A DNA stretch of 46,737 bases. Origin: Deltaproteobacteria bacterium (lineage in GTDB: Bacteria > Desulfobacterota > DSM-4660 > Desulfatiglandales > HGW-15). Positions 8,470 through 42,138 of this stretch are shown here, in pieces. The position numbers were made by a program, and so were the translations under genes. Position 1 is the stretch's first letter. Each line of letters begins with the position of its first letter. The stretch spans positions 1-46,737 of the forward strand of contig JAFGFM010000127.1 in the NCBI GenBank assembly GCA_016931115.1, in the 5' to 3' direction. Under the pieces are notes generated by a model that saw nothing but the letters and a program-made list of their open reading frames with translations, was not told the origin of the DNA and searched no databases.

Positions 8470-8489
8470 TCTTATCTAATCCTTACCTG

Positions 8490-8512
8490 AAGACAGGTTT
8501 AAAACCTGTCTT
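8490..8512. repeat. Perfect 11-bp inverted repeat upstream of 8469
   Basis: AAGACAGGTTT and AAACCTGTCTT flank a single A. It lies in the leader of the gene starting at 8469. It could be an operator or mRNA hairpin, but sequences of this kind are also common dispersed intergenic palindromes, which I think is likelier. Confidence 0.6.
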
Positions 8513-8542
8513 TACAATATATAAATGCACATAATGTAGAAG

Positions 8543-8588
8543 GTCGAGTCGTAGGGGCGCAGTGCCTGCGCCCGCAACCCGACGTTAT
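8543..8588. repeat. Dispersed GC-rich palindromic element, copy A
   Basis: Contains GTAGGGGCGCAGTGCCTGCG, with the arms GGGCGCAG and CTGCGCCC and an outer CGAGTC/CGACGT context. It shares about 45 nearly identical bases with 14879-14930, including the following TTATTCC. It lies between the genes ending at 8593 and starting at 8469. Confidence 0.7.
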
Positions 8589-8592
8589 TCCT

Positions 8593-10722
8593 TTATTCAT
8601 CCTCCAGCAAAAGCATGAGAATAGGTGTAATGGAGGGCCTCTTTGTGCCCAAGACAATAGTCCCTGTAGCAATTACCTCTTCCATATCCTCTGCCCTGTT
8701 GATAAGACTGAAATTATATCGCCCATCCTCCTGTATATCCCAGTCATAGCTCCACGAACCTGTTACATTTGATGCAACGATCTCAAATGGGTTATTGCTT
8801 CCTATCTTAAGCAATATTTGGCTCCCCCATTCCTTGCTTCCGCTCAAGGTCACAGGTGATGTCTCAACACGCGTTGTTGTCCCACCATAGGTATTGAGTG
8901 TAGCCACAGGAAGCCTGTCAAACAGGTCATAACGTAAAAATTCCACCAGGGTATCATTACCGCTTGCATCTGTAAGTTTGCAGGATCTTATCCGGGCAGG
9001 GGTGTTGTGATCCTCTAGCACCCACCAATTGTGGTTTGCATCCTGAACAGCAGCACCTGAAAGCTCTACCCAGTTATCTTCAATATGGTTCTTTGCCCAG
9101 ACCCGCACCTCATCATCAATATTATCCAGATTATCCACAGGCCATTTAAGTTCAATATAGGCTGTGCCCTGCTCAGGTTCCGCAAGGTTGACCTGAAAGG
9201 TTTCGATTTCTGTCCAATCCCCTGTCAGCATCCATTCCACAGGGTTTCCTGTACAGCCAGTCTGTTCGTTTCCCGCAGCGTCAACAGGTATTGCAACTGC
9301 CTGGTGGGTTACTCCATCCTGTGCGTTGGGGCTTATAAAATTTCCCTGGCCGTAATTTTTTACCTGACCATTTTTTGCCCCATCCAGACAAAACTTAAAT
9401 CTGTTGGAGTCAGAACCTTCCGGAGATTCTGCGCGAATACCGACGTTATGTTTGCCCGAACCTGCCGAATAGTTACTTACTTCTGTCAATATACGTTCGT
9501 AAACAGGCACTTGTGGAGGCACAGTGTCATAGATAATTGTGCCTGTTGCAAAAACCTCTTCCACTTCCCCGGCCCTGTTGATAAGGCTAAAATCATATGT
9601 CCCGTCTGTTGTGATATTCCAGTCATAACTCCAGTCCCCATCCACACTTGGATCTACTATTTCAAATGGGGCACCACTTCCTACCTTCAGTAAAATCTGG
9701 CTTCCCCGTGCCTTGTCTCCATTAAGTAAAACCGGAGAGTTGTTCTTGTAGGTTGTTGTACCGCCATAAGCGCCAAGCGTTGCATCCAAAAGATCAACAG
9801 TAAGCTTAAACATAGCAGACGCAAACTTGTTGACATCGTTTGCATCAGTCACAGTAATGGTGATATTAGCCTCACCAGATCCGCTGTTGACTGGGATAGC
9901 AGTAACATACAGGGTTACCGGCACGCCAGCAGTGACTGTCATGGGGCCTGTTAGTGGCACTGTGCCCTGTTCATCTATGTAGTAAATTATATTTGCAGTG
10001 GGAACGAGAGCAGTGTTCGAAGAAAATCCTGTGACATTGACATTTCCGGTTACTGTTGGCGTTATAGTGAAGGCTATAGGATCGGTAGGGGTGTCGATGT
10101 TAGTGGTTTGGTCTGCAATTTCACTAAGGAAATAATACAATGTCTTAAGGACTGATGTGTTGTTTTCTTTGGTGATGATCAGATCTCCATCCTCTGCATT
10201 GTATACCGTACCATTGATGTCCACCAATTCGGTCAGGTTGGTTTCAGGAGAAAAATAAAAATTGACCATATCAGTGAATGTACCGGTTTGCAATGCCGTA
10301 AAGGTAAATGTTGCAACATGAGTTTCACCAGTAAGTACAGGATAAAATTCAGCCAGATGGTCCAAATCAGTCTCGCTTGAAATATCATACCATCTGCCCC
10401 TTTCGATATCAGGAATGGACGGTATAGTAGATTCACCCCACAATATGTATTTAGAAAATCCTGATCCTCTAATGTATTCTTCAAGATCAGGAAAATCGGC
10501 TAGTTCAAGCAATGAAGTATCCCATTCTATTGCAAAGCTTATGTTATCTAAATAATCTGTGGTATCGCCTTCGAATTCTACCGAGATAGTATAATTTTCT
10601 CCAGATGTCAGCACCCCGTCAACATCAGACATGACAAACTGACAAGCCATAGCGGTACCAGAAAATAAAAGTAACAAAATAATGGTATACTGCAAGCTTT
10701 TAGATAAAAAATAATGGCTCAA
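8593..10722 (-). CDS. Large secreted cohesin-like/Ig-like protein without sorting tail
   Basis: 709 residues. The start is TTG at 10722: GGAGG lies about 9 bases upstream and no ATG lies before the signal peptide. The signal peptide ends near TAMA. Residues ~27-190 are a cohesin-like beta domain closely related to the 10836-11495 product (shared TDYLDxxSFAIxWDTSLLE and DISSETDLDH). A cadherin-like stretch follows (ITVTDANDVN). Then one ~95-residue module occurs twice, at ~335-405 and ~620-690, each with YGGTTT, GSQILLKxGS and YxFSLINRA. Unlike its neighbour it lacks a PEP-CTERM tail, so it is probably released or held by a partner. A terminator precedes it at 10768-10810, so it probably has its own promoter. 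Function unknown. Confidence 0.65.
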   Translation of the reverse strand: MSHYFLSKSLQYTIILLLLFSGTAMACQFVMSDVDGVLTSGENYTISVEFEGDTTDYLDNISFAIEWDTSLLELADFPDLEEYIRGSGFSKYILWGESTIPSIPDIERGRWYDISSETDLDHLAEFYPVLTGETHVATFTFTALQTGTFTDMVNFYFSPETNLTELVDINGTVYNAEDGDLIITKENNTSVLKTLYYFLSEIADQTTNIDTPTDPIAFTITPTVTGNVNVTGFSSNTALVPTANIIYYIDEQGTVPLTGPMTVTAGVPVTLYVTAIPVNSGSGEANITITVTDANDVNKFASAMFKLTVDLLDATLGAYGGTTTYKNNSPVLLNGDKARGSQILLKVGSGAPFEIVDPSVDGDWSYDWNITTDGTYDFSLINRAGEVEEVFATGTIIYDTVPPQVPVYERILTEVSNYSAGSGKHNVGIRAESPEGSDSNRFKFCLDGAKNGQVKNYGQGNFISPNAQDGVTHQAVAIPVDAAGNEQTGCTGNPVEWMLTGDWTEIETFQVNLAEPEQGTAYIELKWPVDNLDNIDDEVRVWAKNHIEDNWVELSGAAVQDANHNWWVLEDHNTPARIRSCKLTDASGNDTLVEFLRYDLFDRLPVATLNTYGGTTTRVETSPVTLSGSKEWGSQILLKIGSNNPFEIVASNVTGSWSYDWDIQEDGRYNFSLINRAEDMEEVIATGTIVLGTKRPSITPILMLLLEDE

Positions 10723-10767
10723 ACTGCTTTACCTCCAATGTTGCGACATGGCCTTGATAAGAAGATT

Positions 10768-10810
10768 AAAAATTTCGCCCTCTGGGACAAGATTTCCACC
10801 AGGGGGCGAA
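10768..10810 (-). terminator. Intrinsic terminator after the 10836-11495 gene
   Basis: On the minus strand TTCGCCC...CTGG pairs with CCAG...GGGCGAA and is followed by ATTTTT. It lies about 26 bases past the stop of the PEP-CTERM gene and before the TTG-start gene. Confidence 0.75.
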
Positions 10811-10835
10811 TACAGGCTATAAATGTGTAATATAA

Positions 10836-11495
10836 CTATTTATCACGCCTTCTTATACTAACTAATCCAAGCACCCCACTACCTAATAACCAAACCGCAG
10901 CAGGAATTGGTACTGGTGCCATCACTGAATTTGATCCTTCCTTAAAAATAGCCAGTTCTCCGTATTGTGCGTTGTAACTATCACCGTTGATATCTACAAG
11001 TTCGGTAAGATTATTTTGTGGTGTATAATAAAAACCTGCAAGATTTTCAAAATACCCATCCTGTAACGCTTCAAATGTAAAGGTGGCCATTAAGGTTTCG
11101 TTTGTATTTACAGGGAAAAATTGGTGCATATGGTCCAGATCAGTTTCACTGGACACATCATATAACCTGCCAGACTCTATATCATCAAAAACTGGTGGGA
11201 TACTAGAGTCACCCCATAATGTGTATTTTGATAAACCTCTCCCTCTTGTATAATCTGCCAGCTCATAATCAGTGGCTTCCAATAATGATGTATCCCACTG
11301 AATAGCAAAACTAAGCAAGTCCAGATAATCAGTCTTCTCACCTTCAAAATATACATTAATTGTGTATTCCTCTCCTTCTTCCAGAGTGCCATCTACATTA
11401 GTCATGGTTATTTGCCAAGCAAATGAAGGTAGTGAAAAGGTGAAAGTAAACAACAAAGATGTTAAAAATATAAAAACAAGCTTTTTTATTTTCAT
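10836..11495 (-). CDS. PEP-CTERM protein with cohesin-like domain
   Basis: 219 residues from the chosen start. ATG11495 (MKIKK) is preceded by AGAGGAGATAGA, a strong ribosome site; the upstream ATG at 11519 only adds eight residues covering that site. The signal peptide ends at SFA. A cohesin-like beta domain (about 25-175) contains SFAIQWDTSLLE and DVSSETDLDH. The C-terminus has VPIPAAVWLLG, a hydrophobic helix, and SIRRRDK: a full PEP-CTERM signal for exosortase-dependent sorting. It is paralogous to the N-terminal third of the 709-residue neighbour. The matching exosortase is elsewhere. Ligand unknown. Confidence 0.8.
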   Translation of the reverse strand: MKIKKLVFIFLTSLLFTFTFSLPSFAWQITMTNVDGTLEEGEEYTINVYFEGEKTDYLDLLSFAIQWDTSLLEATDYELADYTRGRGLSKYTLWGDSSIPPVFDDIESGRLYDVSSETDLDHMHQFFPVNTNETLMATFTFEALQDGYFENLAGFYYTPQNNLTELVDINGDSYNAQYGELAIFKEGSNSVMAPVPIPAAVWLLGSGVLGLVSIRRRDK

Positions 11496-11541
11496 TCTAT
11501 CTCCTCTTTCTTTATTCATTAGTCATTTCAATAGATGGGAC

Positions 11542-13065
11542 CTAATACCAAGGGCCCTGAGTCCCATATTTCTGCCTAAATGCAGAATTATCAGTTTTAT
11601 CAACATCCCCGTCAGCATCAAAATCACTCTGGGGTCCTGAAGTTCCGTATTGCGATCGGAACGTATTGAAATCGTTACGATCCACATCACCATCATTGTC
11701 ATAATCAGCATCAGTAACGTCACCATACCCATCCCCATCACTATCCTGCTGACTCGGGTTAGAAGTAAGATATGCATTATCTGCGGCATTGGGTATGCCG
11801 TCACCATCCAGATCATGGGTGGCATCAAGTGCGCTGCCCGGATAATAGATAGTAAGCCTTGGTGTGACACCTGGCATCCAGTAATCATAAGCAGAACCAG
11901 GGCTCCCGGCGCATCCCCCTGATTCATCACCGGATGGATTCCACATAACAGCAAGCCCGCGTCCCCACCTGTCTGCAAGTGCTCCGGTGGCAGAGTCATC
12001 CTGGCATGCATCAGGGGCAAAATACTTATATTCACTGTTATCAACCTTATTTCCATCGGTCGCCGGTGTAGTGCGTATTCCATCAGCAATCTGATCCACT
12101 ATCCCGGCCTTGATAAGGGCTGCATAGCCGTTTTCATCCGGCCCGCCAACCCCAAAGGCATCGCCTCCGCCAATATGCAGGTTGCCTTCGGCATCCTGGC
12201 CAATGTGGGCGCCGCTCAGTAGGTTCTGAGCAACAACGCGGGAGTTGGTATCATAATTAAGTGAATTCGGAGTTGCAGGGTCCCAGTCTGCTGCATCCCA
12301 TACCTTTATTTCGCCTGTACGATTTGGATATGTGTAATAACCGATGCCAACCAGCAGATCGCCATTCGCGGTTACCTCCACGTCAGCGCTTGCGCCCGGA
12401 TGCGGTGTTAAAAGCACCCCGGTGTGGTCCTCAGGATCAGCAGCCTGGGTATCTACTGAACCGACACCTGATTCAAAAACACAATCAGGATCATTGTGGT
12501 AAGGATAGGTGCATTCCGGTCCGGGCCATGCCCCGCCATCTATAACAAAGTAGCGGTTATCAGCCCAGTCGCCTTCATAGTAGTTCACATTTTCAAATTT
12601 TTTTACTGATGCATGTGTATCAAGCACCGGCGGACTGGCAGCGCTGAGCACGCTGGTCGGGATAATAAGCAGCGGTGCGCCATATCCTATTCCAAGCGCT
12701 ATCTTGCTTCCATCCGGTGAAACATGAATAAAACTCGGATCCATTGTGCCGGTTACAGTTCCCACCACATCAAACTGGCTTGAGCCATAGGTACGTTGTA
12801 AATAAATTTTATCATTATTAGCAGCGATAATCCGGCCTTTAGCCGCAAACTTGCCATCGAGCATCCCTGTTGTACTCTCAGGGAAATAATCCGCTGCCAC
12901 AAACCAGCCCCCCTCAACCGTGGGCAGGTCAATATCTGCCTCGTAACCGATCTCAGGGTCCTTGTAGTCAGCAAAATCATCTGCCAGTATGGGTATTGGT
13001 ATGGCAGTAAGGCTTAACAAGACCGCCGCCCCTGAAAGGAGTTTAATTATTTTGTTGTTTTTCAT
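11542..13065 (-). CDS. Secreted propeller-like protein with C-terminal dockerin/EF-hand repeats
   Basis: 507 residues with a signal peptide ending near residue 28 (ILA-DD). The central ~400 residues look like a beta-propeller, with blade-type segments such as FIHVSPDGSKIALG, DVEVTANGDLLVGIG and GQDAEGNLHIGGGD. The last ~95 residues carry calcium-loop motifs: DLDGDGIPN, DSDGDGYGD, then two dockerin-like pairs NDGDVDRND and DADGDVDKTD. There is no PEP-CTERM tail; a dockerin-like end could attach it to a cohesin-like neighbour such as 10836-11495, which is inference. GAGGT precedes the ATG. It lies at the distal end of the run that starts with the DUF4465 gene. Confidence 0.65.
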   Translation of the reverse strand: MKNNKIIKLLSGAAVLLSLTAIPIPILADDFADYKDPEIGYEADIDLPTVEGGWFVAADYFPESTTGMLDGKFAAKGRIIAANNDKIYLQRTYGSSQFDVVGTVTGTMDPSFIHVSPDGSKIALGIGYGAPLLIIPTSVLSAASPPVLDTHASVKKFENVNYYEGDWADNRYFVIDGGAWPGPECTYPYHNDPDCVFESGVGSVDTQAADPEDHTGVLLTPHPGASADVEVTANGDLLVGIGYYTYPNRTGEIKVWDAADWDPATPNSLNYDTNSRVVAQNLLSGAHIGQDAEGNLHIGGGDAFGVGGPDENGYAALIKAGIVDQIADGIRTTPATDGNKVDNSEYKYFAPDACQDDSATGALADRWGRGLAVMWNPSGDESGGCAGSPGSAYDYWMPGVTPRLTIYYPGSALDATHDLDGDGIPNAADNAYLTSNPSQQDSDGDGYGDVTDADYDNDGDVDRNDFNTFRSQYGTSGPQSDFDADGDVDKTDNSAFRQKYGTQGPWY

Positions 13066-13102
13066 ATTAATACCTCGTTAAAAGTTAAACGCTATGAGTA
13101 AA

Positions 13103-13194
13103 CAGGAATAAAGAGGGCTGATTTTAGAAAATTGATCAAAATATCATCTTAAATTTTCTCCTTTCCTGTAATCTGTTGCTCCTCTTTATTCCTG
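13103..13194. repeat. 14-bp perfect inverted repeat between two surface-protein genes
   Basis: CAGGAATAAAGAGG (13103-13116) is repeated inverted at 13181-13194 with 64 bases between. It lies between the stop of the 13218-14171 gene and the start at 13065. No U-run follows on either strand, so it is not a standard terminator. It may be an mRNA stability or processing stem. Confidence 0.6.
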
Positions 13195-13217
13195 GGCCCG
13201 CCTTCATGGTAAAACGG

Positions 13218-14171
13218 CTAAAGGTTATTACGCCTCCTAATCCCTATAAGACACATTACCCCGGTTCCTAAAAGCCATATAGCTCCCGGTATTGGCACAG
13301 GGGCTACATCGGAAAAGGCGTCTATCTCACCGCCAGAATAGCCGCTGATGCCTTCCACCTTGATGTACTGAATCCAGTCCAGTTCAACCCCATAAAGAAG
13401 ATAAAGGTCATCCAGATCAAAGCCTGTTCCGCCTCCTGACCCCTGGTATGCCTCGATAGCATCAGCAGCAGAAACACCTGTCTGACCGAGCAACGCGCCA
13501 AAAACATCAGGATCGACCGGTTTGGTGAAATCCATCAAATTGGTTGTCCAGCCGTTTCCGGTTGCATCATATTGCGCCTGATCCCACTCATAGGCATGGG
13601 TAGGATATGCATTATCGCCATATGGTCCATTTGAATAGGCGTACCAGGTCCATTGCGATTGATCCTGACCTTCATATGCAGGTCCCTGGCTGACTGATAC
13701 GACTACGTTTTCAAAAAAACCCGCGCCATTAAATGAACTTCCTCCTGAAAGCATATATGTACTCATATTGGAGGCATCACTAACACTGCCACTACCAGTA
13801 TAAAATGCATTTCCAAAGACCAAAAAATCCAGGCCAAAGGGGTTGTTGGGGTCATTCATGACCTGGTGGTCAAAACCAGCCACGATATATTGCCCATTGT
13901 TAAGGGTTGTAATGAGCTTTGAACCATCCAGGCCGACGTTATAGGCCGGTTCCACCAGCTTTACATGGGCTGTTGCGGCGCTTCCCCATGTATTCTTGAA
14001 ATCTGTTGCTGGGGCACCGATTACAGCATTAGGGTCATTATAGAGGCTGCTGCCTGTTAATGTACTGGAATATGAAATAAGGTCTGTAGCATAAGGCGAC
14101 CCGAAAACCGTGGCAGACAAAGCTACAACCGCCATTCCAAATAAAAATGTTACTAATAAAAACTTTTTCAT
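13218..14171 (-). CDS. PEP-CTERM cell-surface protein (paralogue of 14955-16028)
   Basis: 317 residues. The signal peptide ends near VFG and AGGAG precedes the ATG. The body contains ISYSSTLTG, NDPNAVIGAP, a glycine-rich region with FGLDFLVFGNAF, and late FDLDDLYLLYG with YIKVEGISG. The same order of motifs (VVSYVP, GFDNAIYNGEGADF, FDLDDLL, YVRIVDIPG) occurs in 14955-16028, so the two are diverged paralogues, probably beta-sandwich surface domains. The C-terminus VPIPGAIWLLG, helix, IRRRNNL is a PEP-CTERM signal. Spacing to the upstream gene is 32 bases, consistent with one operon. I recall this type being called 'cell surface protein' in cobalamin-regulated loci, but cannot confirm it here. 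Confidence 0.75.
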   Translation of the reverse strand: MKKFLLVTFLFGMAVVALSATVFGSPYATDLISYSSTLTGSSLYNDPNAVIGAPATDFKNTWGSAATAHVKLVEPAYNVGLDGSKLITTLNNGQYIVAGFDHQVMNDPNNPFGLDFLVFGNAFYTGSGSVSDASNMSTYMLSGGSSFNGAGFFENVVVSVSQGPAYEGQDQSQWTWYAYSNGPYGDNAYPTHAYEWDQAQYDATGNGWTTNLMDFTKPVDPDVFGALLGQTGVSAADAIEAYQGSGGGTGFDLDDLYLLYGVELDWIQYIKVEGISGYSGGEIDAFSDVAPVPIPGAIWLLGTGVMCLIGIRRRNNL

Positions 14172-14203
14172 AAAAAATTACTCCTTCTTTTCCTGTCAAT
14201 AAA

Positions 14204-14848
14204 TTATTTTGAACGTTTACGTAATCCAATCAATCCAATAATCCCGCTGCCTAAAAGCCATAGAGCACCGGGGATGGGGACAGGGGCAGCAAAAGGAACG
14301 TCCAGGAAATAGGCGTTGGGGTCCCCATTGAACCATGTAATCGCATTTATGCCTTCAAGCTGACCATCTGCAAGCAACTCCTCATTATAACCGGCTCGAT
14401 TGGCGTACCAGTCCCCCAATGTTATCCAATCATCACTCATCGCACCCCACAGCGCAAAGGGATCGTTAGTACTACCGAGATTCCAGCTTCCCTCTTCGTC
14501 CGCGTGCGTATGGTTATCAACACCGTCGTTGTAGACGATGTCATAGATGAACGCCCCACCATAGCCGGAGGACAAGGTGAATACGCCCGCATCGTTTAAT
14601 GCATCGAGCATATCGGATTCGTAAGCTGTACCGTTCCAGCGGAAGCCAAATGCGTGCGATTCGGTTTGGTAGGGGCCTGAATAGATGTTCCAGTCCACGA
14701 CCAGAATTGTCTCGTTTTCTCCGCTGCCAGTCCAGGCATCCACCTCAATCCAGGCGCTGTTGCCACTTGCACCCGTGAAGTAATAGGGCGAGGCCTGAAC
14801 CATTGTGCCGATCAATAAAAAACAAATCACTAAAAATACTTTTTTCAT
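14204..14848 (-). CDS. PEP-CTERM protein of unknown family
   Basis: 214 residues. The signal peptide ends at VQA and AGGAG precedes the ATG. The mature part is a compact, Trp- and Gly-rich, probably beta domain with AWIEVDAWTGSGE, ETILVVDWN, SHAFGFRWNG and an HTHADEEGSW stretch whose His and acidic residues could bind a metal or ligand. The tail VPIPGALWLLG, helix, LRKRSK is a PEP-CTERM signal. I do not recognise the family. It lies between two paralogous PEP-CTERM proteins, 32 bases before one and about 106 bases after the other, where a palindromic element intervenes. Confidence 0.75.
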   Translation of the reverse strand: MKKVFLVICFLLIGTMVQASPYYFTGASGNSAWIEVDAWTGSGENETILVVDWNIYSGPYQTESHAFGFRWNGTAYESDMLDALNDAGVFTLSSGYGGAFIYDIVYNDGVDNHTHADEEGSWNLGSTNDPFALWGAMSDDWITLGDWYANRAGYNEELLADGQLEGINAITWFNGDPNAYFLDVPFAAPVPIPGALWLLGSGIIGLIGLRKRSK

Positions 14849-14878
14849 TTCTAATCTCCTGATAATTCTTTAATACGT

Positions 14879-14967
14879 GGATCGGATCGTAGGGGCGCAG
14901 TGCCTGCGCCTGCAATCCGACATTATTCCAAACATCAATTAGAGGAAAGTCGGATTAATAACCCGAC
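14879..14967. repeat. Dispersed GC-rich palindromic element, copy B, plus adjacent palindrome
   Basis: 14879-14930 repeats the element at 8543-8588 (TCGTAGGGGCGCAGTGCCTG, then GCAATCCGACATTATTCC). A second palindrome GTCGG...CCGAC (14949-14967) overlaps the stop codon of the 14955-16028 gene. Together they fill the space within the PEP-CTERM operon and could cause partial termination or protect mRNA ends. Confidence 0.65.
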
Positions 14968-16028
14968 CTACCTGACTTTCTTCGACGAATACCCAGAAGA
15001 CCTATTATCCCTGAACCTAAAAGCCAGATAGCTCCAGGGATTGGTACGGCATTGATAACGCCAAGCGCCTCAAAGTCCAGACCACCTGAACCCCATGTAA
15101 CCCATGCATCATAAATTGGATTACCATCAGCATCTGTCAATGTACCATTACCCGGGATATCAACGATTCTGACATAGTTAATTTCATTAAGGTCGACAGC
15201 ACCTGATAAAACCAGCGGATCATTCAGAAGATCATCAAGGTCAAAGGGAGTTCCCCAACTTGCGCTATAGGCATTTGCATGCTTTCCCACCAGGTTGTAT
15301 ATATTGCTGACATCCTGGGTAAGATAATTTGTGCTGACCATGGTTCCTGTTCCATTAAGATCTATCCGATTGTCTACCATTCCATTCGTGGTGGCATTTG
15401 GGTAATTCAGATAGTCGCTGGGAAAGCGTGCAAAGTCAGTCCCATTTGTTGACACATCCACAAAACCGAGTTCTGCAAACATCTGACCTGCAACACTGCC
15501 TGCACCTGTGCTGTAATTTGAAACAAAGCCGTTTTCAAAGGCCGCAAAATCGGCACCTTCACCATTGTATATTGCATTGTCAAAACCAAGGGTGAGTATG
15601 CCGGGGCCGGTGATTCCGCCAGGCGGGTTAATGCCCAGGTTGTTCGTCCAACTGTTGATCTCGGCCATATTCATATCGCCAAGGGTGACGATGTTCATAT
15701 TGTTGCCGGTTACAGGACCTAAAGCGAGCGCCGGATTTGCGAACTGAGTACCTATACCGTTCTGGCCATAGGCGCCAGTATTATCAGAAGGCACATAGCT
15801 CACAACTTCTGTTGCCCATCCAACAAAAATCGGGTTAACATAGTTGCCGTTAGTATCTGTAGCTGCTACTCCCTCGCCAGCAGGGCCTAAAAACCCTGCA
15901 ATCCCTGCATCAATAAAACCTACTTCATCAGCGCCTCCTTTGCCTGGTGAATATGGCCCTGCAAATGAACTGCTGTATGTTAACAAGGTAAAAACTAAAA
16001 AAACACTAAACAAAAATCTCTTTTTCAT
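14955..16028 (-). CDS. PEP-CTERM cell-surface protein (paralogue of 13218-14171)
   Basis: 357 residues from ATG16028 (MKKRFLF), with GGAG upstream; a TTG two codons earlier is less likely. The signal peptide ends near SFA. The body holds ATEVVSYVPS, a glycine/asparagine-rich segment, ILTLGFDNAIYNGEGADF followed by AAFENGF, FAELGFVDVSTNG, FDLDDLLN and YVRIVDIPGNG. This reads as a regular beta-sandwich with an F/Y-V-x-V-S-x-N-G strand typical of carbohydrate- or ligand-binding surface proteins. The tail VPIPGAIWLLG, helix, IRRRKSGRSGY is a PEP-CTERM signal. It starts 18 bases after the DUF4465 gene, certainly the same transcript, so it is under the riboswitch leader at 16.9-17.9 kb. Confidence 0.78.
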   Translation of the reverse strand: MKKRFLFSVFLVFTLLTYSSSFAGPYSPGKGGADEVGFIDAGIAGFLGPAGEGVAATDTNGNYVNPIFVGWATEVVSYVPSDNTGAYGQNGIGTQFANPALALGPVTGNNMNIVTLGDMNMAEINSWTNNLGINPPGGITGPGILTLGFDNAIYNGEGADFAAFENGFVSNYSTGAGSVAGQMFAELGFVDVSTNGTDFARFPSDYLNYPNATTNGMVDNRIDLNGTGTMVSTNYLTQDVSNIYNLVGKHANAYSASWGTPFDLDDLLNDPLVLSGAVDLNEINYVRIVDIPGNGTLTDADGNPIYDAWVTWGSGGLDFEALGVINAVPIPGAIWLLGSGIIGLLGIRRRKSGRSGY

Positions 16029-16046
16029 AATCAATAATTCTCCTTT

Positions 16047-16901
16047 TTAAACTTTCGATCTTTTTCTCCCAATCCCGATAAACCCCAGAAGACCGGAACC
16101 CAAAAGCAGGAGAGACGGGGGTATTGGAACCGGATTTACATCCAGATTATCCATTACAAAATAGGCTGGGGTGTTTATGCCCCAGGTTCCTGTATCTGAT
16201 GAGGTGAGGTCGAACTCAAGGCCGTATACCAGTCCAAGACTGGTCAAATCTACCCATGTCCAGTCAGTGATGATATAGTCACCCTCTGAATTTTCAGAGC
16301 GGTAATCCGCCAGGTAAAAATCAACAGAATTGCCGGTGCGGGCATATTCACTATCAAGACCATAAACAGTCAGCTTGAACCAGTCAGGGTCAGTACCGGT
16401 AGCGCCGCCAAATTTTTTTGCATAGGAATCACCTTCCATCATGGAATGATATGCATATGCATTGTTGGTGAAATAGGCGCCATTTACAACCTGGGCATAT
16501 TCACCAGACACAACCCCGTTGTAAGTCTGAGGATACCATCCCATCCAGGAACCGACACAGCTTACCCCATAGTTAGCTGAACCATTTACACCACCGCCTG
16601 CACCATTATTGCTGTATGCAACAAACTGTCCGTTAACCCCTGAAAGTGAGGTATTGGTCTGATTGGAATAGGCAAAATCCACCCAGAAATCATACTCATC
16701 CTCTTTAAAATTGGTAAAAGCTACGTCTCCGCTGGTAAATGAACCATGCGTACCAAAGTCATCTTCTCCTGATGTATCAACACCATTCCAGTATGACTCT
16801 GATGCAAGAGTCAAATCATCAAAAGTTGACACAGAAGCGCTTGCTGACGAGGCTATAGCCAATAACCCCGTTAAAATTAATAATAAAAACATTTTTTTCA
16901 T
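16047..16901 (-). CDS. PEP-CTERM protein with DUF4465 domain, headed by the multi-riboswitch leader
   Basis: 284 residues. AAAGGAGAGATAA precedes the ATG and the signal peptide ends near ASA. Residues ~24-255 match DUF4465 as I know it: an FDDL start with ESYWNGVDTSG, FTSGDVAFTN, an S-(V/G)-W-x-G-(F/W) core, FYLADYRSEN, and WTWVDLTSLG with YGLEFDLTSSDTG. The tail VPIPPSLLLLG, helix, IGRKRSKV is a PEP-CTERM signal. DUF4465 genes recur, to my knowledge, in cobalamin-riboswitch loci of Bacteroidetes, where several surface lipoproteins bind B12; here the protein is PEP-CTERM-sorted instead. The 5' leader holds two cobalamin riboswitches and a GEMM riboswitch with terminator. B12 binding is inference from context. 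Confidence 0.8.
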   Translation of the reverse strand: MKKMFLLLILTGLLAIASSASASVSTFDDLTLASESYWNGVDTSGEDDFGTHGSFTSGDVAFTNFKEDEYDFWVDFAYSNQTNTSLSGVNGQFVAYSNNGAGGGVNGSANYGVSCVGSWMGWYPQTYNGVVSGEYAQVVNGAYFTNNAYAYHSMMEGDSYAKKFGGATGTDPDWFKLTVYGLDSEYARTGNSVDFYLADYRSENSEGDYIITDWTWVDLTSLGLVYGLEFDLTSSDTGTWGINTPAYFVMDNLDVNPVPIPPSLLLLGSGLLGFIGIGRKRSKV

Positions 16902-16929: not shown

Positions 16930-16964
16930 AAAAAAGCCGGATCACCTATCAAAGGCAACCCGGC
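16930..16964 (-). terminator. Terminator overlapping the 3' strand of the GEMM aptamer
   Basis: On the minus strand GCCGGGUUGCCU pairs with AGGUGAUCCGGC and is followed by six U. Its 5' arm is the 3' closing strand of the GEMM aptamer, so aptamer folding and termination are mutually exclusive. Ligand binding is therefore predicted to switch expression on. It ends 29 bases before the DUF4465 start. Confidence 0.8.
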
Positions 16965-17082
16965 TATCCAATCTGTTTTTGAGCCTTGAGCTTTGAGCTT
17001 TGAGCTTTGAGCTTTCAGCCTTGAGCTTCTTCTTTGGATCCGCGGCTTTCCGGCCCCCGGTTACCCGGGGTGTGGCTTTTTC
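16950..17082 (-). promoter_or_regulatory. GEMM / c-di-GMP-I class riboswitch with expanded P3 loop
   Basis: Minus-strand order: AAGCC-ACACC, a stem CCCCGG-GUAA-CCGGGG capped by a GNRA tetraloop, GCCGGAAAGCCGCGGAUCC, a long loop, then GGAUAGCCGGGUUGCC. This matches the GEMM-I layout (AAACC, GNRA-capped P2, GCAAAGCC, P3, AGCCGGGUUACC). P3 (AUCC/GGAU) encloses about 60 extra bases, mostly AGCUCAA heptamers. The base aligned to Vc2 G20 appears to be A here, the change found in cGAMP-sensing GEMM-Ib; that alignment is by hand. It lies downstream of two cobalamin aptamers and upstream of a terminator. Confidence 0.75.
16976..17032. repeat. TTGAGCT heptamer array inside riboswitch loop
   Basis: About seven units of a 7-base repeat (TTGAGCT with variants TTGAGCC and TTCAGCC). 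The same heptamer occurs at 23404-23434. The array lies entirely in the P3 loop of the GEMM aptamer. The unit length is not that of a CRISPR repeat and there are no spacers. Confidence 0.85.
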
Positions 17083-17091
17083 TTTTTAATA

Positions 17092-17201: not shown

Positions 17202-17364
17202 GGCAGTTGAGGTCTCCTGGCTCTCCCGGCCCTGGCCGCCTTCCCATAATGTCCGTGTCATTACAGTGGCATGTTGATCAGGGCTATGATTCCTTTTACT
17301 GGAATCAGGATTACAGTTGCGGGGCAGCAGCGGCTTTTCACCGCTTTCCCTTCCTCTGCCTGTG
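17202..17364 (-). promoter_or_regulatory. Cobalamin (B12) riboswitch 1
   Basis: The minus strand reads AGGCAGAGGAAGGGAAAGCG, GGUGAAAAGCCGCUGCUGCC, CCGCAACUGUAAUCC, AUGCCACUGUAAUG, GGGAAGGC, and closes with the B12 box GAGAGCCAGGAGACCU. All conserved cobalamin-aptamer boxes are present in order. It is the second of two aptamers in series and is followed by a GEMM riboswitch and the DUF4465 gene. Confidence 0.93.
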
Positions 17365-17703: not shown

Positions 17704-17719
17704 CTTTGCAATTAAATTC

Positions 17720-17887
17720 GGCAGATAAGGTCTCCTGGCTCTCCCGATTCCGGTCACCTTCCCATAACCCATGTCTAGTTACAGTGGTATATTGATCGGA
17801 ACACTGATTTCATATATTGAAATCAGGATCACAGTTGCGGGGCAGCAGCGGATTTACACCGCTTTCCCTCCATCTACCTATGCTTAC
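17720..17887 (-). promoter_or_regulatory. Cobalamin (B12) riboswitch 2
   Basis: The minus strand shows GGGAAAGCGGUGUAAAUCCG, CCCCGCAACUGUGAUCC, UACCACUGUAACU, GGGAAGGUGACC, and GAGAGCCAGGAGACCUUAUC. It is a complete cobalamin aptamer, the first of the series leading to the DUF4465 operon. It begins about 83 bases after the CRP/AraC gene stops, so it can be reached from its own promoter or by read-through. Confidence 0.92.
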
Positions 17888-17970
17888 ATCAGCAGATAAT
17901 AAAAGAGCTTCAGGAATTTTGCTTGTTTTATTTTGCTTTTTAATAAGATAAATTTGCTTTAATAAAAAGA

Positions 17971-18801
17971 TTAACCCGATTGTTGTTTTATTTTTACCTG
18001 GGATACATGCTGAAAGGACTTTTTATAATGTGAAGGTGTAACACCTTCCAGTTTCAGGAAAACCCTGCTGAAATATGAGAGGTCATTGAAGCCAACAGCA
18101 AAGGCAGCCTCGGTAACATTCATGTCATTATTTTCCATAAGATATTTTGCTCTTTGGACACGTTTGACATTAATATAATCCTTTAACGAGGCCCCTGTTT
18201 TGGTTTTGAAGATTCTTGAAAAATGGTACCTGCTCATTGCGTTTGCCTGGGCTATCTCATCTAGGCTAAGAGGATTCATGAAGTTTTTTTCAATATATAT
18301 GAGCGCCTTTTTTATAGTACGGGGGAAAAAATCAGATTCATCCTTATTATCTATATTTTTTTTTGAGAAAGATAATGAGTTATTTACCTTTTCAAAGGCC
18401 CTCATGAAACTGGCAATAGCTGATTTATAAAAATATTCCTTTACATGCGGATAGCTATTGAGAATACCAATAAAATCTTTTCTGGAAAGCCGATAGCCTT
18501 GAACATGTGTCCTGCTGTACATGTTCACAATGGATAATTTTCCGACCATCAATGAACCGCTTCCAAAAAAATCTCCTTTAGTTAAACAACCGCACTCAAT
18601 CAAATCATTGTTGGCCGCCATCAATACAGTCAGTTTACCGGAGCTTATAATGCCAACTTCCTTTACAAGATCACCTTCTTTAATGACCTGCTGCCCCTCT
18701 TTGTAATTAAAGGGGAAAAACCTCTGGCAAATGGCATCCATTTCCTTCTCGGATATATTTTTAAAAACAGGTATATCGGCCAGTAATTCTCTAACATCCA
18801 T
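17971..18801 (-). CDS. CRP-like (cNMP-fold) / AraC-type transcriptional regulator
   Basis: 276 residues from ATG18801 (MDVRELL); the 14 residues before it in the open frame are the riboswitch terminator hairpin read as protein. Residues ~5-115 are a cyclic-nucleotide-binding-fold domain (IPVFKNISEKEMDAI, EGDLVKEVGIISSGKL, KGDFFGSGSL). The usual phosphate-cassette Glu and Arg are not visible, so it may not bind cAMP. Residues ~165-265 are an AraC DNA-binding domain with two helix-turn-helices (LSLDEIAQANAMSRYHFSRI and VTEAAFAVGFNDLSYFSRVF). It is expressed behind cobalamin riboswitch 3 and ends next to riboswitch 2, so it likely regulates the neighbouring B12-linked genes. Confidence 0.85.
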   Translation of the reverse strand: MDVRELLADIPVFKNISEKEMDAICQRFFPFNYKEGQQVIKEGDLVKEVGIISSGKLTVLMAANNDLIECGCLTKGDFFGSGSLMVGKLSIVNMYSRTHVQGYRLSRKDFIGILNSYPHVKEYFYKSAIASFMRAFEKVNNSLSFSKKNIDNKDESDFFPRTIKKALIYIEKNFMNPLSLDEIAQANAMSRYHFSRIFKTKTGASLKDYINVKRVQRAKYLMENNDMNVTEAAFAVGFNDLSYFSRVFLKLEGVTPSHYKKSFQHVSQVKIKQQSG

Positions 18802-18836
18802 AAAAAACCCCTTTATGCCGCAGGCACAAGGGGTGT
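18802..18836 (-). terminator. Hairpin of riboswitch 3 that also covers the ribosome site of the regulator gene
   Basis: On the minus strand ACCCCUUGUGCC pairs with GGCAUAAAGGGGU and is followed by six U, directly touching ATG18801. The AAGGGG of the 3' arm is the best ribosome-binding sequence for that ATG, so the hairpin could stop transcription, hide the ribosome site, or both. Confidence 0.75.
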
Positions 18837-18893
18837 TATCCATATACCAACCTGGAAAACCTGTACCTCGCAGGCATCCAAACTAACTATCAT

Positions 18894-19050
18894 GGCAGGT
18901 CTCCTGGCTTGTGAATCATCCTAATAGCCATCTCCTTCCCATCCCGTAATAGGCGGAACAGTGGATATTTTGGCTTTCGTCCTCACTTACAGTGGCGGGT
19001 CCGCAACGGCTTTACACCGTTTTCCCTATAAAGCCCATGTAGGGCACCAG
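18894..19050 (-). promoter_or_regulatory. Cobalamin (B12) riboswitch 3, upstream of the CRP/AraC regulator
   Basis: The minus strand has GGGAAAACGGUGUAAAGCCG, GACCCGCCACUGUAAGUG, UAUCCACUGUUCCGCC, GGGAAGGAGAUGG, and AAGCCAGGAGACCUGCC. These are the cobalamin aptamer boxes in order. It is not part of the 17.1-17.9 kb duplication; peripheral stems differ clearly. It controls the regulator through the hairpin at 18802-18836. Confidence 0.9.
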
Positions 19051-19319
19051 AATAGTTTTTAGAATTCTCTTCTTGTTTAATCTTCTTTAAAAAAAACCGC
19101 AATATATTAATAATTAATATTACAATAGACGAACTATAGCTTGCGTTAAATTGCTATTCTTTTTAACTTTCTTGCGCATGTAAAGGTATTAACTAAATGG
19201 TATAAATTTTGATTGCAGCTAATAAACTAATTTTATTATGATCGGACATGCTGTGATTTATTGACTATATGAGTAGGTTAAATTATACTCTTAATAAAGC
19301 AACTTAAGAAAGGATTTTA
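19051..19319. other. AT-rich intergenic region upstream of riboswitch 3
   Basis: About 270 bases between the response regulator stop and riboswitch 3. I see no gene. A promoter for the riboswitch 3 transcript should lie here on the minus strand (very AT-rich around 19090-19130), but I cannot assign -35 and -10 boxes with confidence. Confidence 0.4.
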
Positions 19320-23448: not shown

Positions 23449-23856
23449 TCACTTCACCAGCTTCTGGGTAACAAGGCCCAGTTGTGTAATCTCAAGCCGC
23501 TGCAGAAGATCAAGCACATTGATCACACTCTCATAATAAACCTTCCCATCACCCTTTATAACTACAGGCAGGGCAGGGTCTGCCGCCTTGTACTGCCTTA
23601 AATAGGTTTCAAGCTCCGCAAGGGTAACAGGATAGGTATCAAGAAATATCTGCCCATCGGCCAGTATTGATATGGCCTTTGTCCTTGGTTTTGTAAGGCT
23701 CTGCGCCGCGCTTGCCTGGGGCATATTTACCTTTATGCCCTGTATGGCCGCTGTAATTGAGATGATAAAAACCACAAGCAGGGTCCATGCAAGGTCAAGC
23801 AGAGGCGTTACGTTTATCTCATCAAGTATCCTGTTTTCGGTTTTACGCCTTCTCAT
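23449..23856 (-). CDS. exbD: ExbD/TolR biopolymer transport protein
   Basis: 135 residues with one membrane helix near the N-terminus. It carries the conserved INVTPLLDLAWTLLVVFII, with the functional Asp in PLLDLAW, and a C-terminal periplasmic domain with ILADGQIFLD and KGDGKVYYESVINVLD. It forms the proton-conducting stator with ExbB and drives TonB. The start codon overlaps the ExbB fusion stop in ATGA, so the two are translationally coupled. Confidence 0.92.
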   Translation of the reverse strand: MRRRKTENRILDEINVTPLLDLAWTLLVVFIISITAAIQGIKVNMPQASAAQSLTKPRTKAISILADGQIFLDTYPVTLAELETYLRQYKAADPALPVVIKGDGKVYYESVINVLDLLQRLEITQLGLVTQKLVK

Positions 23857-25634
23857 TTATTTTCCCCGAATTTTTCTTCAATTTTCAGCATAAACTGCTC
23901 AACAAATATATCCATATCCGCAATGATGCCTTTGATCTTGATTGCCAGAAAGTTGTACCCAAACAGCGCGGGTATGGCCACGATAAGGCCAAATACTGTT
24001 GTTGCCAGGGCTGAGGCAACGCCTGGCGCGATAGCTGCAAGATTTGCCTCCCCTGCTTCTGCAAGGGCTGCAAAGGTATTCATAACGCCCCATACAGTTC
24101 CTAAAAGCCCCAGAAAGGGGCCGCCTGATATGGACATAGTCAGGATCGTAAGCATTGAATTGATCCTGAGATCTTCCCTTACAAAACCTTCATCAATATA
24201 GGTCCTTATTGTGTTTATCTCATGTTTAGTCAGCTTTTTTCCACCGGAGGATATTTTATCAAGAAGGTGGTTAAGGCGGTTACATCCTGCATTATACAAC
24301 TTACAGATGGATGAATTTTCAAAATTATCCTTCTCTATATTATTATGGAGGACATCATAATTATTCAGAAAGGATTCCCAGAACAATTTGTTTTCTTTTT
24401 GTATGAATACAAGCTGAAATGCTTTATTCATGATGATAAACCAGCTACCAATAGCAAAGAATACTAAAACAATTATTATAATCCAGCCATCGAGCGAGAT
24501 GTTTTTTACGATGGTCGCAAAGTAAAAAACCGGCATCCCTCGCCCTTTGTTAATCTCTTCACCCTCTACTACAAGAAATTTTGGATCAGGCCCCTCTGTC
24601 ATGTGTGCAAGGCCTATGTATGAAATTGTTCTTGATCCCTTTGATACCCTGATTTCATCAAGGTCACCCAGAAATGGTTTTGACCTGTCTATAGAATTTC
24701 CGACCACCATATTGCTGTTTATTTGAGGCATTGAGAATTTCATATCCGCCCATGTGGACTCTATGCCGTCAAGAGTTATTGTTATCCTGCTATTTGGCAT
24801 AACTGTAACAAAAAGGTGCTGCCATTTCATGGAGGCGATAGCTGTTGTCTTTTCAGTTGATACAATAACGCCGGTATCGGACTTTACACTGCAATAGATC
24901 ATGGAGTTCTCAATGCCTATTAACACCTCGCCGCTGCTTCCCGACATTGTAAAGAGGTGGGCTTCACTTACCGCGTCAGTCATTCTTACCCAGGCGGAAA
25001 ATGTGAGCCCGGCATTAAAGTCCATAGATGGAGAATTGTTTATCACTATTCCATCCTCAATGCTTGCAATCGTAGCCCCTGTGCCTATTATTGACGGCAA
25101 CCCAAGCCCGCCCTTGAATTCTACGGCATTGTTTTTATAGGCAGTAGCATCCTTTGGGAGACCTTCCACCTCATCCATATGCATAACAAGCACCTGGTCA
25201 ACCGCATAGGTGCCGTTCATGTCCTGCCCTCCCACCGCGCTCTCATTGCCATAATACATCCATATATATTCAGTCGCGGTCTTTGCGGATACCCTGGGTA
25301 GCCTCACCCACAGAAGCGCGATTTCATCTACAGGATCAAACCTTTCTATATGATGCTTGAGAAGATTTTGGCCGTCACTTGAAATTAAACGAATATCAGT
25401 GCCGTCATCCTTTGCGTTCGCAAAATTAAAATTTCCTGAATGGAGCCTTAATAAAACCGGAAAGTCATCGATGTTCTCACTGATATCAGCGCCGGAGGGC
25501 GTCGTATCAAAGGATATCTTCTGCCTGTACTGCCATGATTCATTCCACCATTCAGGGGCCTCTCCTGATGCTGCGAATGGGATAAACAACAATAATGAAA
25601 TTATAAAAAAAGCCCGAGTAATAATATTCTTCAC
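23853..25634 (-). CDS. DUF2341-LamG-ExbB fusion: proton channel with large extracytoplasmic domain
   Basis: 593 residues starting with GTG25634, with AAGGAG seven bases upstream. After the signal peptide (ending near ASG), residues ~25-120 form a DUF2341 domain (WWNESWQYRQKISF, YIWMYYGNE) and ~150-350 a LamG/concanavalin-like domain (HMDEVEGLPKDATAYKNNAV, LTFSAWVRM, LGDLDEIRVSKGSRT). The C-terminal half is MotA/TolQ/ExbB: a membrane helix at ~385-405, a cytoplasmic loop, then helices with MLTILTMSISGGPFLGLLGT, VWGVMNTF, and APGVASALATTVFGLIVAIP. So an ExbB is fused to lectin-like domains facing the periplasm. It directly follows the exoprotein gene (22 bases). I have seen this architecture named before, but its role is unknown. 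Confidence 0.85.
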   Translation of the reverse strand: MKNIITRAFFIISLLLFIPFAASGEAPEWWNESWQYRQKISFDTTPSGADISENIDDFPVLLRLHSGNFNFANAKDDGTDIRLISSDGQNLLKHHIERFDPVDEIALLWVRLPRVSAKTATEYIWMYYGNESAVGGQDMNGTYAVDQVLVMHMDEVEGLPKDATAYKNNAVEFKGGLGLPSIIGTGATIASIEDGIVINNSPSMDFNAGLTFSAWVRMTDAVSEAHLFTMSGSSGEVLIGIENSMIYCSVKSDTGVIVSTEKTTAIASMKWQHLFVTVMPNSRITITLDGIESTWADMKFSMPQINSNMVVGNSIDRSKPFLGDLDEIRVSKGSRTISYIGLAHMTEGPDPKFLVVEGEEINKGRGMPVFYFATIVKNISLDGWIIIIVLVFFAIGSWFIIMNKAFQLVFIQKENKLFWESFLNNYDVLHNNIEKDNFENSSICKLYNAGCNRLNHLLDKISSGGKKLTKHEINTIRTYIDEGFVREDLRINSMLTILTMSISGGPFLGLLGTVWGVMNTFAALAEAGEANLAAIAPGVASALATTVFGLIVAIPALFGYNFLAIKIKGIIADMDIFVEQFMLKIEEKFGENK

Positions 25635-25655
25635 CTTGATTCTCCTTATAGTTCT

Positions 25656-28600
25656 TTAATCAACATAAAATCCGATTACTTCCACACTCAGCCATTTTGC
25701 GATAAAGTCTTCCAGCGCCTTCATTGCATCCTGCATGGCCTGATCCCTTTCGCCGGCAAGTGATGATGTGGCATTATCCGCCATGCCTGCGGTATCTGTA
25801 AGGCTGCTCGCCCCTGCTGACAGTGCCCCCATATTAATAGCAGTTGTTGTAACAGGGAGACCAACAGACCCCTGTGAAAAATTGATGTTCTGTGCGTTCA
25901 CGATCTCTGTCGCGCCAAGGATAACATTTGACCCGGAAATACCAGCCTCACCGGCATCTATTTCGCCCTCTGGAGCAAAGAGATACACATCACCTGGCAG
26001 GGGCTCTTGTTTAGGCCCTTCAAGACCATCAGGGTCAAAGGTAAGGGATCTTATACCGCTACCTACTGCAGGGGGTTTAAACTCGATCGACCATGTGCCT
26101 GAAACCTGGTCATATACAGCAACAGATTCTGTTGCATTTATGCTTGTCTTTGAACCACGCCCTGCATTTATATTACCCTTATCCGACCATACTGTGATAT
26201 CTCCCCCTGCAAATGTCATTATCCTTGATTCGTTTACATTGAGATCCCCTTTAGACAAAATATTCAGGGAACCGCCGGACGCGGTAAATATGCCTGAATT
26301 TTTAGCTGCGCTTCCAGGCCGTGAAAAGGTTGTCTTGCCAACATTTATATCTCCCATTGCAGCCATATAAATGCCGCCTTCGCTTCCTGTGATGCTTATC
26401 TGGGATTCCACCATATCAATATTGCCAGGACCTGATATATACTCATTTAACAGCGGATCAGAGATCATTTCTCTGGCCCGGTTTACCAGATCTTCAGCCT
26501 CATCTTTTTTACCTTCTGCCAGTATTTTACTGTATATTGCCCCTGCAAGCTGGATGTTCAGGCCAGCCACAAGGCTGTCTGCCTCATAATCCATATTCTT
26601 ATCAAAATATTCCAGATATCTGCCGGTAAGTTGCAGGATTATCATCCTATCCCTGGTCTGATTTATAAGTGTCTCTGCTTTACCATCCTCCCCTGCTGAC
26701 AAATAGGCATTATAGGCGGCTGTATCCTGCTCGATTCCAAACTGTGCTGCAAGCTCTTCCGCCTCAGAATACTTTCTTTCTGCCATCAGGCGTATATAGG
26801 TATCCGCCACCGACTTTATATCAGCAGGGATATCGGTATACTTATAATTGATATCACTTCCGAATAATTTTTTTACAGCGGCCAGGGTTAAATCCCTGTT
26901 AATACCGGAAAGCAGCACAAGGTCATTATCCTCCCTGCCAAGATACGGGTTAAACTGGTTTCCTATGAGCTGAATACCGTCTGTTGTGCCAAGATCAATG
27001 CTGTTACCAGCCCTTACCAAAAGTGTGCCCGGCCCCCCGTGCAGTATCCCTGACTGAAATGGATTTACAATGCCTGATGAAAAGAAGATATCCCTTTCCG
27101 CGCTTATTATGGAGAGGTCAGAACCCCTGGTATTCTGTCCACTGTAATATATATCCCTTATATCTCTGCCTGCTGTTATTCGGGTCTCTTTGGGGAGATA
27201 CAGTAATATCTTATTAATATCCCTGCCTGCTTCTATGGTTACAGGGGTATAATCATTAATATGGAGCACACCAGCACTATGGCCTGACTGAAGTAATAAG
27301 ATAAGATTATTCACATCACCCGCACTGTTTAAACCTCTTATGTTCCCGTATATTTGAGCAGGGTCAATATCAGACATGTATATACTGGCCTTTTTATTAG
27401 GGCTTATATCTAATCCTGCCCCACTTATGTCATTTCCTGCCCTTAATAAAAGGTTACCTGTGGGTGAAGGGGCTATGAAAAAGGTAGAATTAAAAATAAT
27501 ATCGCGCCCCGCTGTAAAGGATAGGCTAGCTGGCAGTAAATTCTGCTTTTGTGCATTCTGAATATTTTTATCATAGAAGACTGTATTACCGGTCAGGATA
27601 ATATCATTGTTAAGGGCATTAAGGTTTACAGATGTGCTGGTGGTGTAACCAAGGTTCCAGGATGATGGGGTGGTAAAACCCATTTTTGCAAGAGTGGGGT
27701 TTACAATAGTGCCAAGCTCTATTTTCCCTCCTGCTGCTAATGAAAGTTGTGCATCAAAGAGCTCTATGTGCTGATTTTTCAGATTCGATCTTGTCCCGAA
27801 ATCCCCCGCAGCATAAAGCTCCCCAGCACCTTCAGATATCAGAAATCTTCCGTTCAGATCTCCGCCTGAATATACCTCAAGGTCTCCTTTGCCAAATATG
27901 CCTATGCCTGCGGTAATCTCTTTACCGGCCTTTACCCTGATGTCTCCTCCGGACATTGCGACAATACCCTGTGAAGCATCCCTTCCTGAAATCCCGCCAT
28001 CATATGAAGCAGCCCAGACATCCTGTAGAGTCATGCTCACAGAGTCACGAACTCTATATACTGCATCCCACGCGTCGTTTTTTGTCGGAATGGCTTCAAT
28101 CTGGCCTCCGGAGTTGATAAAAACATTTCCGCCCCTACCGTATTCAGTATATTTATTAAGGCCGCTTTCCGGAGGCGCCCCAAGGGACCTGACAGCGCCC
28201 AGGATATTATTACTCCTTGTCAGTGATAGACCATTTAATATGTTGAAAGTTATATCCCCGGTAGAAGATTGAACTGCCCCGCCCTTTAAATAGAGTGACC
28301 CTCCCACATCTCCTCTTATATCTCCGCTGTATGTGGCCAGGTTGAAGCCAATGTTTCCCGATGTGACCATTGAATTGAGATTAATCTGGTTTATGGTTGT
28401 ATCCCCTGCTGATGAAAACCCTAGACTACCCCTTTCAGTATAGATAAGTGCCTTGCTTTTTATCTCCAGATTACCTGATGCCGTATTATGGTTCCAGGCA
28501 GAGGGGTCTGCTACCGAAAGATCAGATCCGGCAGAAAAGTTCAGGTTCCAGGATTTCACATTCGAATCTTTCCACAGCTCCTGTTTATTTGTGGGGGCAT

Positions 28601-35582: not shown

Positions 35583-35903
35583 TTCCAATATCTCTCTTGA
35601 TCAATATCTATTTTAAACATCAGCAACCTGTTGTTTTAAGGGAATTTGAATTTTCACTACGAAGCACGCTGAATTCGTAAAAATATATAAATAAAATTCT
35701 TCTCCGTGTCCTCCGTGCTCTCCGTGGTGAATGGTATTTTTGAATTTCCCTTTTCCCTCGTTACTCACCCAAGGGCACGGTGCGCAGTGCCCCTACAGTT
35801 TTACACTATTATGATGTTCTAAATTCCGGCCTTTCATTCCTGTTTTCTGACTTCCGATTTCCGCCCTCTGACGACCTGTTAGCATTCAGTGGCGGTGAAT
35901 TTT
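35583..35903. repeat. 321-base intergenic region of dispersed repeats between tpsB and tpsA
   Basis: There is no gene. The region contains a CTCCGTGTCCTCCGTGCTCT-type repeat with CTCCGTGGTGAA (about 35700-35731), the palindrome GGGCACGGTGCGCAGTGCCC followed by CTAC (35773-35796), and a CTGACTTCCGATTTCCGCCC-like pyrimidine stretch (about 35848-35870). I see no promoter I would defend, although one for tpsA is expected on the minus strand near 35620. Confidence 0.6.
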
Positions 35904-37535: not shown

Positions 37536-37572
37536 TTTAATATCATCACAATCCAAATGACTGAGTTTAAGA

Positions 37573-41932: not shown

Positions 41933-41983
41933 TGTTATTCCCTCCAAAAAAATAATAAATATTATTAATCTTCTTTTTTCCTC

Positions 41984-42062: not shown

Positions 42063-42138
42063 AACCTAAATTTTGTAATTTTTATTCCTTTGCCCTTAAA
42101 CCCCTTTTTCACTCACCTCCTTTCCGGCTCAGGAACGT

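Follow-up and report, generated by a model that had tools for sequence, protein, structure and literature searches.

A cobalamin riboswitch as probable OFF switch of a lineage-specific CRP/AraC regulator beside a B12-controlled operon

The window considered here, a stretch of 46,737 nucleotides analysed as a whole, carries three cobalamin riboswitches, all on the minus strand, and two c-di-GMP-I-type riboswitches, as found by an Rfam scan of its full length. The highest-scoring of the three, riboswitch 3, matches the complete RF00174 model (positions 1–189; E 2e-28; gathering score 31.5 bits) and lies before the gene of a regulator in which a cNMP-binding domain is fused to an AraC-type DNA-binding domain. 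The original prediction of a cobalamin riboswitch at this place is borne out by the match, although the interval then given stopped at 19050 and left out 16 nt of the aptamer. The regulator gene and its leader comprise the following elements:

18877–19066, minus strand: aptamer of riboswitch 3 (RF00174, 115.6 bits)
18860–18874, minus strand: P13/L13 hairpin, CCUG-CGAGGUA-CAGG (folds and sequence)
18815–18876, minus strand: candidate antiterminator (competing folds; duplex against shuffles)
18807–18834, minus strand: intrinsic terminator hairpin with the SD sequence AAGGGG (18813–18808) in its 3′ arm (−16.6 kcal/mol; pattern scan and fold)
18802–18807, minus strand: U6 tract, serving as terminator tail and as SD-to-ATG spacer (sequence)
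17971–18801, minus strand: regulator gene, 276 residues, cNMP-binding domain and AraC HTH (Pfam PF00027, PF12833 and PF00165)

The 75 nt that separate the aptamer from the start codon are occupied by P13 and the terminator. The terminator hairpin (ACCCCUUGUGCCUGCGGCAUAAAGGGGU, 18834–18807) has AAAGGGG as its 3′ arm, and ATG18801 (18801–18799) directly follows the U6 tract. A hairpin of equal stability is found at this site in 0.2% of dinucleotide shuffles of the leader, and the local 66-nt fold around it has a z of −2.8; the earlier description of a hairpin with AAGGGG in its 3′ arm, six U residues and then the ATG is confirmed (shuffle fraction 0.002). Homologous proteins begin at ATG18801, which is therefore the likely start; ATG18843, which opens a longer frame, was rejected on the same ground. 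In the candidate antiterminator, AUGCCUGCGAGGUACAGG (18876–18860) pairs with CUUGUGCCUGCGGCAU (18830–18815), that is, with the 5′ arm and loop of the terminator, and excludes the P13 hairpin (18874–18860). AAGGGG and the AUG are unpaired in the antiterminator fold, while the SD is paired in the terminator fold. The best fold with the antiterminator reaches −24.2 kcal/mol, against −27.5 kcal/mol for P13 plus terminator over the same stretch; the minimum free energy fold contains the antiterminator when the transcript ends at 18814–18810 and the terminator when it ends at 18806, which is the folding order to be expected as the RNA is transcribed. An antiterminator duplex of equal strength occurs in 2.2% of shuffles, so that the candidate is modestly better than shuffles (0.022–0.039); truncated folds of the leaders of related regulators, the window included, were mostly no better than shuffles, and of the antiterminator candidates only the window's pairing was retained. 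In this riboswitch class, cobalamin binding is commonly relayed by kissing of L5 with L13. A candidate kissing loop of 4 bp with one G-U, picked by eye and without statistical support, joins AGGU in L13 (18868–18865) to GCCU in L5 (18954–18951); by the same visual inspection a relative, genome G291, has 6 bp (UUACCU/AGGUAA), and the pairing is ambiguous elsewhere. Altogether, the anatomy of the leader is consistent with a predicted B12 OFF switch acting on both transcription and translation.

The association of riboswitch, terminator and regulator recurs in distant genomes. A search with the AraC domain covered the order of the regulator, 395 genomes of the phylum and the GTDB contigs, and the AraC domains of eight regulators, from the window, G002, G018, G075 (locus L056), G087 (L057), G291, G350 and G354, form one clade (support 95/87) among 48 AraC rows. 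G291 we take to be Desulfobacca acetoxidans. A cobalamin riboswitch lies directly upstream of seven of the eight (the window genome, G000; G002; G018; L056; G291; G350; G354), so that conservation of regulator plus riboswitch in relatives, which the original prediction had set as a check, is found across the phylum. At the remaining locus, L057, a low-threshold scan upstream of the regulator gave no cobalamin riboswitch, the only one there being downstream; outside the clade, none of 22 distinct AraC-type loci had one in the flanks scanned. Chance placement was rejected, given nine riboswitches in 5.18 Mb against seven of eight regulators. An intrinsic terminator (−16.6 to −28.2 kcal/mol) stands between aptamer and start in each of the seven riboswitch-bearing leaders. 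Contact between hairpin and start codon, as first proposed, is real in the window but peculiar to this genome: only there does the terminator overlap the SD, and in the relatives it stands about 85–320 nt upstream of the start. In G018 a gap of 317 nt follows the terminator, and another promoter could therefore serve the regulator there. The fusion of cNMP-binding and AraC domains is present in five of the eight proteins (window, L056, G291, G350 and G354), the cNMP domain being absent from G002, G018 and G087. A full-length homologue search of the classes of G291 and G354 gave no further members at 1e-40, and the module is therefore patchy; a genome of the same genus as the window's, G001, has neither a close relative of the regulator nor DUF4465. 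In the riboswitch of the G002 regulator (L015/L146, 4677–5040, plus strand), about 150 nt are inserted between the two conserved halves of the aptamer, 5′ and 3′, and its Rfam score falls to 37.7 as a result.

Downstream of the regulator gene and on the same strand lies an operon with a leader of its own:

17710–17905, minus strand: cobalamin riboswitch 2, downstream of the regulator gene (RF00174, 70.8 bits)
17210–17351, minus strand: cobalamin riboswitch 1, in series with riboswitch 2 (RF00174, 70.4 bits, model 45–169)
16951–17086, minus strand: c-di-GMP-I riboswitch aptamer directly before the operon (RF01051, 55.8 bits)
16935–16965, minus strand: intrinsic terminator whose 5′ arm overlaps the 3′ end of the c-di-GMP aptamer (pattern scan against aptamer coordinates)
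16047–16901, minus strand: DUF4465 secreted protein with a PEP-CTERM-like C terminus and HI-loop NTPAYF (PF14717, E 1.6e-49; translation)
6645–16034, minus strand: rest of the operon, with several PEP-CTERM-like proteins, a TSP_3 protein and a DUF1573 protein (domain matches)

Two cobalamin riboswitches and a c-di-GMP-I riboswitch thus precede one gene in tandem, and the same order of cobalamin and c-di-GMP-I riboswitches is found in loci L056, L141 and L158 and three times in L157. The overlap of terminator and aptamer at 16935–16965 is as expected of a predicted c-di-GMP ON switch. Riboswitches 2 and 1 have the appearance of a tandem duplication, a long, G-rich hairpin that is similar in the two cases following each of them, and the c-di-GMP-I aptamer holds a long insertion of TTGAGCTTTGAGC-like repeats. 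The first gene of the operon combines the PF14717 match with the TPAYF tyrosine of the HI-loop, and proteins with DUF4465 have been found to bind B12 in eight divergent cases (PMC13398666). The claim that the regulator sits beside a B12-controlled operon is therefore stronger than when it was made, because the first gene belongs to a B12-binding family.

Elsewhere in the window, the second c-di-GMP riboswitch, of the c-di-GMP-I-GGC type (60.5 bits, 41981–42058, minus strand), overlaps the start of the frame 41174–42112, whose true start probably lies further in. The region 23449–37556 (minus strand) has a frame of 3310 residues beside a ShlB-type two-partner secretion transporter (35904–37556), as well as an ExbB-like protein fused to DUF2341 and laminin-G domains (23853–25634) with ExbD/TonB partners.

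Most regulators of the clade adjoin cobalamin plus c-di-GMP tandems, DUF4465 PEP-CTERM operons and/or Tad-pilus operons. L056 and G354 repeat the window's order of regulator, cobalamin riboswitch, c-di-GMP riboswitch and PEP-CTERM/DUF4465 genes, and G002 has it without the c-di-GMP riboswitch; G354 and G002 also have a TonB receptor in the neighbourhood. The regulator stands at the head of a Tad-pilus operon in G291 and G350, and this operon is directed towards a PEP-CTERM operon under cobalamin and c-di-GMP tandems. DUF4465 is present in the window genome, G002, G075, G350 and G354. The riboswitch array of G291 (L157, C1:899000–917500; array at 900.6–907.1 kb) agrees with the seven-riboswitch region described for D. 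acetoxidans (PMC9481103). The window operon is partly collinear with the array region and the genes downstream of it, with identities of 50% for the gene at 14204, 62% (312 aa) at 13218, 61% (503 aa) at 11542, 34% at 6645 and 41% at 5149. In several genomes a second conserved PEP-CTERM-like protein, with an N terminus PYAPAAGQ or PYSPGKG and no domain-family match, stands beside DUF4465 (window 14955–16034; L056 4625–5404; L144 5461–6267; L146 6105–6935), and is possibly another B12-capture protein. Moreover, in the window's own genome (contig C117, L011 15169–15352, plus strand) a cobalamin riboswitch of 100.5 bits precedes XrtA/PEP-CTERM-like exopolysaccharide export and chain-length genes, divergent from a Tad operon. 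B12 control may extend to the system that sorts PEP-CTERM proteins.

With a probability of roughly 0.7, riboswitch 3 in our reading serves to switch off a lineage-specific CRP/AraC regulator when cobalamin is bound. That B12 controls the regulator through a hairpin that ends transcription and sequesters the SD, as originally proposed, appears very likely and is well supported by the anatomy of the leader together with the conserved riboswitch (7/8) and terminator (7/7); the OFF direction is predicted with equally high confidence. With cobalamin bound, L5 and L13 would dock and P13 would keep AGGUACAGG occupied, so that the terminator would form and transcription stop, the SD being paired in any read-through RNA. 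In its absence, 18876–18860 would pair with the 5′ arm of the terminator, transcription would continue and the SD would be free. The regulator, made under B12 limitation and probably an activator rather than a repressor, would then most likely activate the nearby DUF4465/PEP-CTERM B12-capture operon; in relatives, the activated island would include the Tad-pilus operon. The operon leader would separately need low B12 (riboswitches 2 and 1) and high c-di-GMP (the c-di-GMP-I riboswitch), the outcome being a feed-forward gate of NOT B12 AND c-di-GMP AND regulator. The two-layer circuit of the original prediction, with the regulator acting on the adjacent operon, is an inference, and we see the chances that the regulator acts on the neighbouring island as evenly balanced.

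Several alternatives bear on this picture. Regulator and operon could form one transcription unit in which riboswitch 3 would attenuate everything and riboswitches 2 and 1 and the c-di-GMP-I riboswitch would be internal attenuators. This arrangement, somewhat short of an even chance, is compatible with the preferred explanation, the regulator being the first gene of its own operon. Everything is on one strand, and regulator and riboswitch 2 are separated by 65 nt in the window, the corresponding gap in G002 being about 5 nt, so that a single transcript is favoured in both; gaps of about 125 nt in L056 and G354, however, could hold a promoter, and the operon under the tandems runs on the strand opposite to the regulator in G291 and G350. 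Alternatively, riboswitch 3 could control a regulator whose targets lie elsewhere (Tad pili or unlinked genes), the B12-capture operon answering to its own riboswitches only. We hold this to be a plausible minority view, with about one chance in three. The position of the regulator at the head of the Tad operon in G291 and G350 speaks for it, as does G018, which keeps riboswitch and AraC regulator but has no DUF4465, and no operator site for the regulator was identified. Yet the operon next to the regulator is under cobalamin and c-di-GMP control in the window, L056 and G354, and under cobalamin control in G002; in G350 the contig of the regulator also holds the DUF4465 operon, at a distance of about 16 kb.

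In cobalamin riboswitches of the E. coli btuB type, the ribosome-binding site is sequestered by a hairpin downstream of the aptamer. The window's hairpin resembles these, but it is also an intrinsic terminator and the gene that it controls encodes a transcription factor. Control of the regulator could be translational only, as for btuB, with negligible termination at 18807: the 3′ arm contains the whole SD, whose G residues are base-paired in the ensemble. We regard this as improbable, because the U6 tract directly follows the stem and the terminators of the relatives are canonical and away from the start codon; the conserved layer is therefore transcriptional.

The kind of signal that the protein itself may sense can be narrowed. 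The cNMP-binding match (PF00027) covers residues 32–117 with an E of 1.7e-9, and HTH_18/AraC residues 183–261 (E 3e-23); HTH_AraC matches in two stretches give the two HTH motifs within about 100 residues of the AraC/XylS family, and the DNA-binding domain is of this type and not the C-terminal Crp-type winged HTH of CRP/FNR proteins. The protein falls outside the PocR equivalog NF047788, with 77.6 bits (a match of the AraC domain) against a cut-off of 500. In a profile alignment of the N-terminal domain with cGMP-dependent kinase(s), the phosphate-binding Arg of the PRTA motif aligns with Ser90, and this Ser is invariant in the five fusions; a Glu near the same position is kept in three of the five and lost in two. 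Sensing of cAMP or cGMP is unlikely because the phosphate-contacting Arg is Ser in all five. A CRP-like response to cAMP, which would join B12 to catabolite control, is suggested by the PF00027 match but was rejected on the loss of the Arg, and is very doubtful also in view of the Glu lost in two fusions and of the three clade members that have no cNMP domain. Finally, expression from a promoter downstream of the riboswitch, which would make it irrelevant, has still less to commend it, since the weak sigma-70-like match at 18915–18886 belongs to a region in which promoter-like matches are near chance (16 found, 11.3 expected), P13 and the terminator fill the 75 nt available and the riboswitch is kept upstream in seven of eight clade members.

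The closest known case is pocR of Listeria monocytogenes, in which an antisense cobalamin riboswitch controls PocR (PMC9943018). Both pair a cobalamin riboswitch and a Rho-independent terminator with an AraC-type regulator, linked in the case of PocR to B12 use; however, the pocR riboswitch is 3′ and antisense, and B12 favours PocR expression, whereas the window's is in the sense 5′ leader and is predicted to be OFF with B12, and its regulator is a CRP/AraC fusion, unlike PocR. A 2004 survey of delta-proteobacterial B12 elements names, in its available part, only synthesis, transport and ribonucleotide reductase genes (PMC545781). In the literature covered, with subscription journals mostly outside its scope, no regulator of the CRP/AraC or AraC kind was found under a sense cobalamin riboswitch, only the antisense case of pocR. 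Cobalamin riboswitches, terminator and SD mechanisms, the antisense pocR switch (PMC9943018) and tandems of AdoCbl and c-di-GMP-I riboswitches, along with the seven-riboswitch region of D. acetoxidans (available part of PMC9481103), are already known, and the window's operon leader has the same predicted NOT B12 AND c-di-GMP logic as those tandems. The available part of that account mentions neither the regulator gene, found here about 20 kb from the array with its own cobalamin riboswitch upstream, nor a link of the region to B12-binding proteins, which is drawn here. Like BtuJ1 and BtuJ2 of Bacteroides, the DUF4465 protein encoded at 16047–16901 has the conserved NTPAYF loop and a locus with cobalamin riboswitches; unlike these lipoproteins (PMC13398666), it has a PEP-CTERM-like anchor, and its locus adds a c-di-GMP riboswitch and a regulator. 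A cultivated relative would allow direct testing of the module.

Enzymes or transporters are the direct targets of most riboswitches; a metabolite riboswitch placed on a transcription factor would put many promoters within reach of one RNA sensor. Distantly related members of the phylum keep the association, with B12-capture and/or surface-appendage genes nearby except in G018, and this recurrence beside B12-capture and pili genes suggests a surface programme for B12 starvation in which a protein regulator works alongside the RNA switches. It also offers a reason for the cobalamin/c-di-GMP array of D. acetoxidans, namely surface proteins made when B12 is scarce and c-di-GMP high, and the surface-protein genes in loci related to this array include a B12-binding family. 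Tentatively, the CRP/AraC family under sense riboswitches may represent a two-tier, phylum-wide programme for B12 starvation, which would coordinate B12 capture by PEP-CTERM proteins, Tad pili and c-di-GMP-dependent surface life, and in which the CRP-like domain would sense a ligand other than cAMP.
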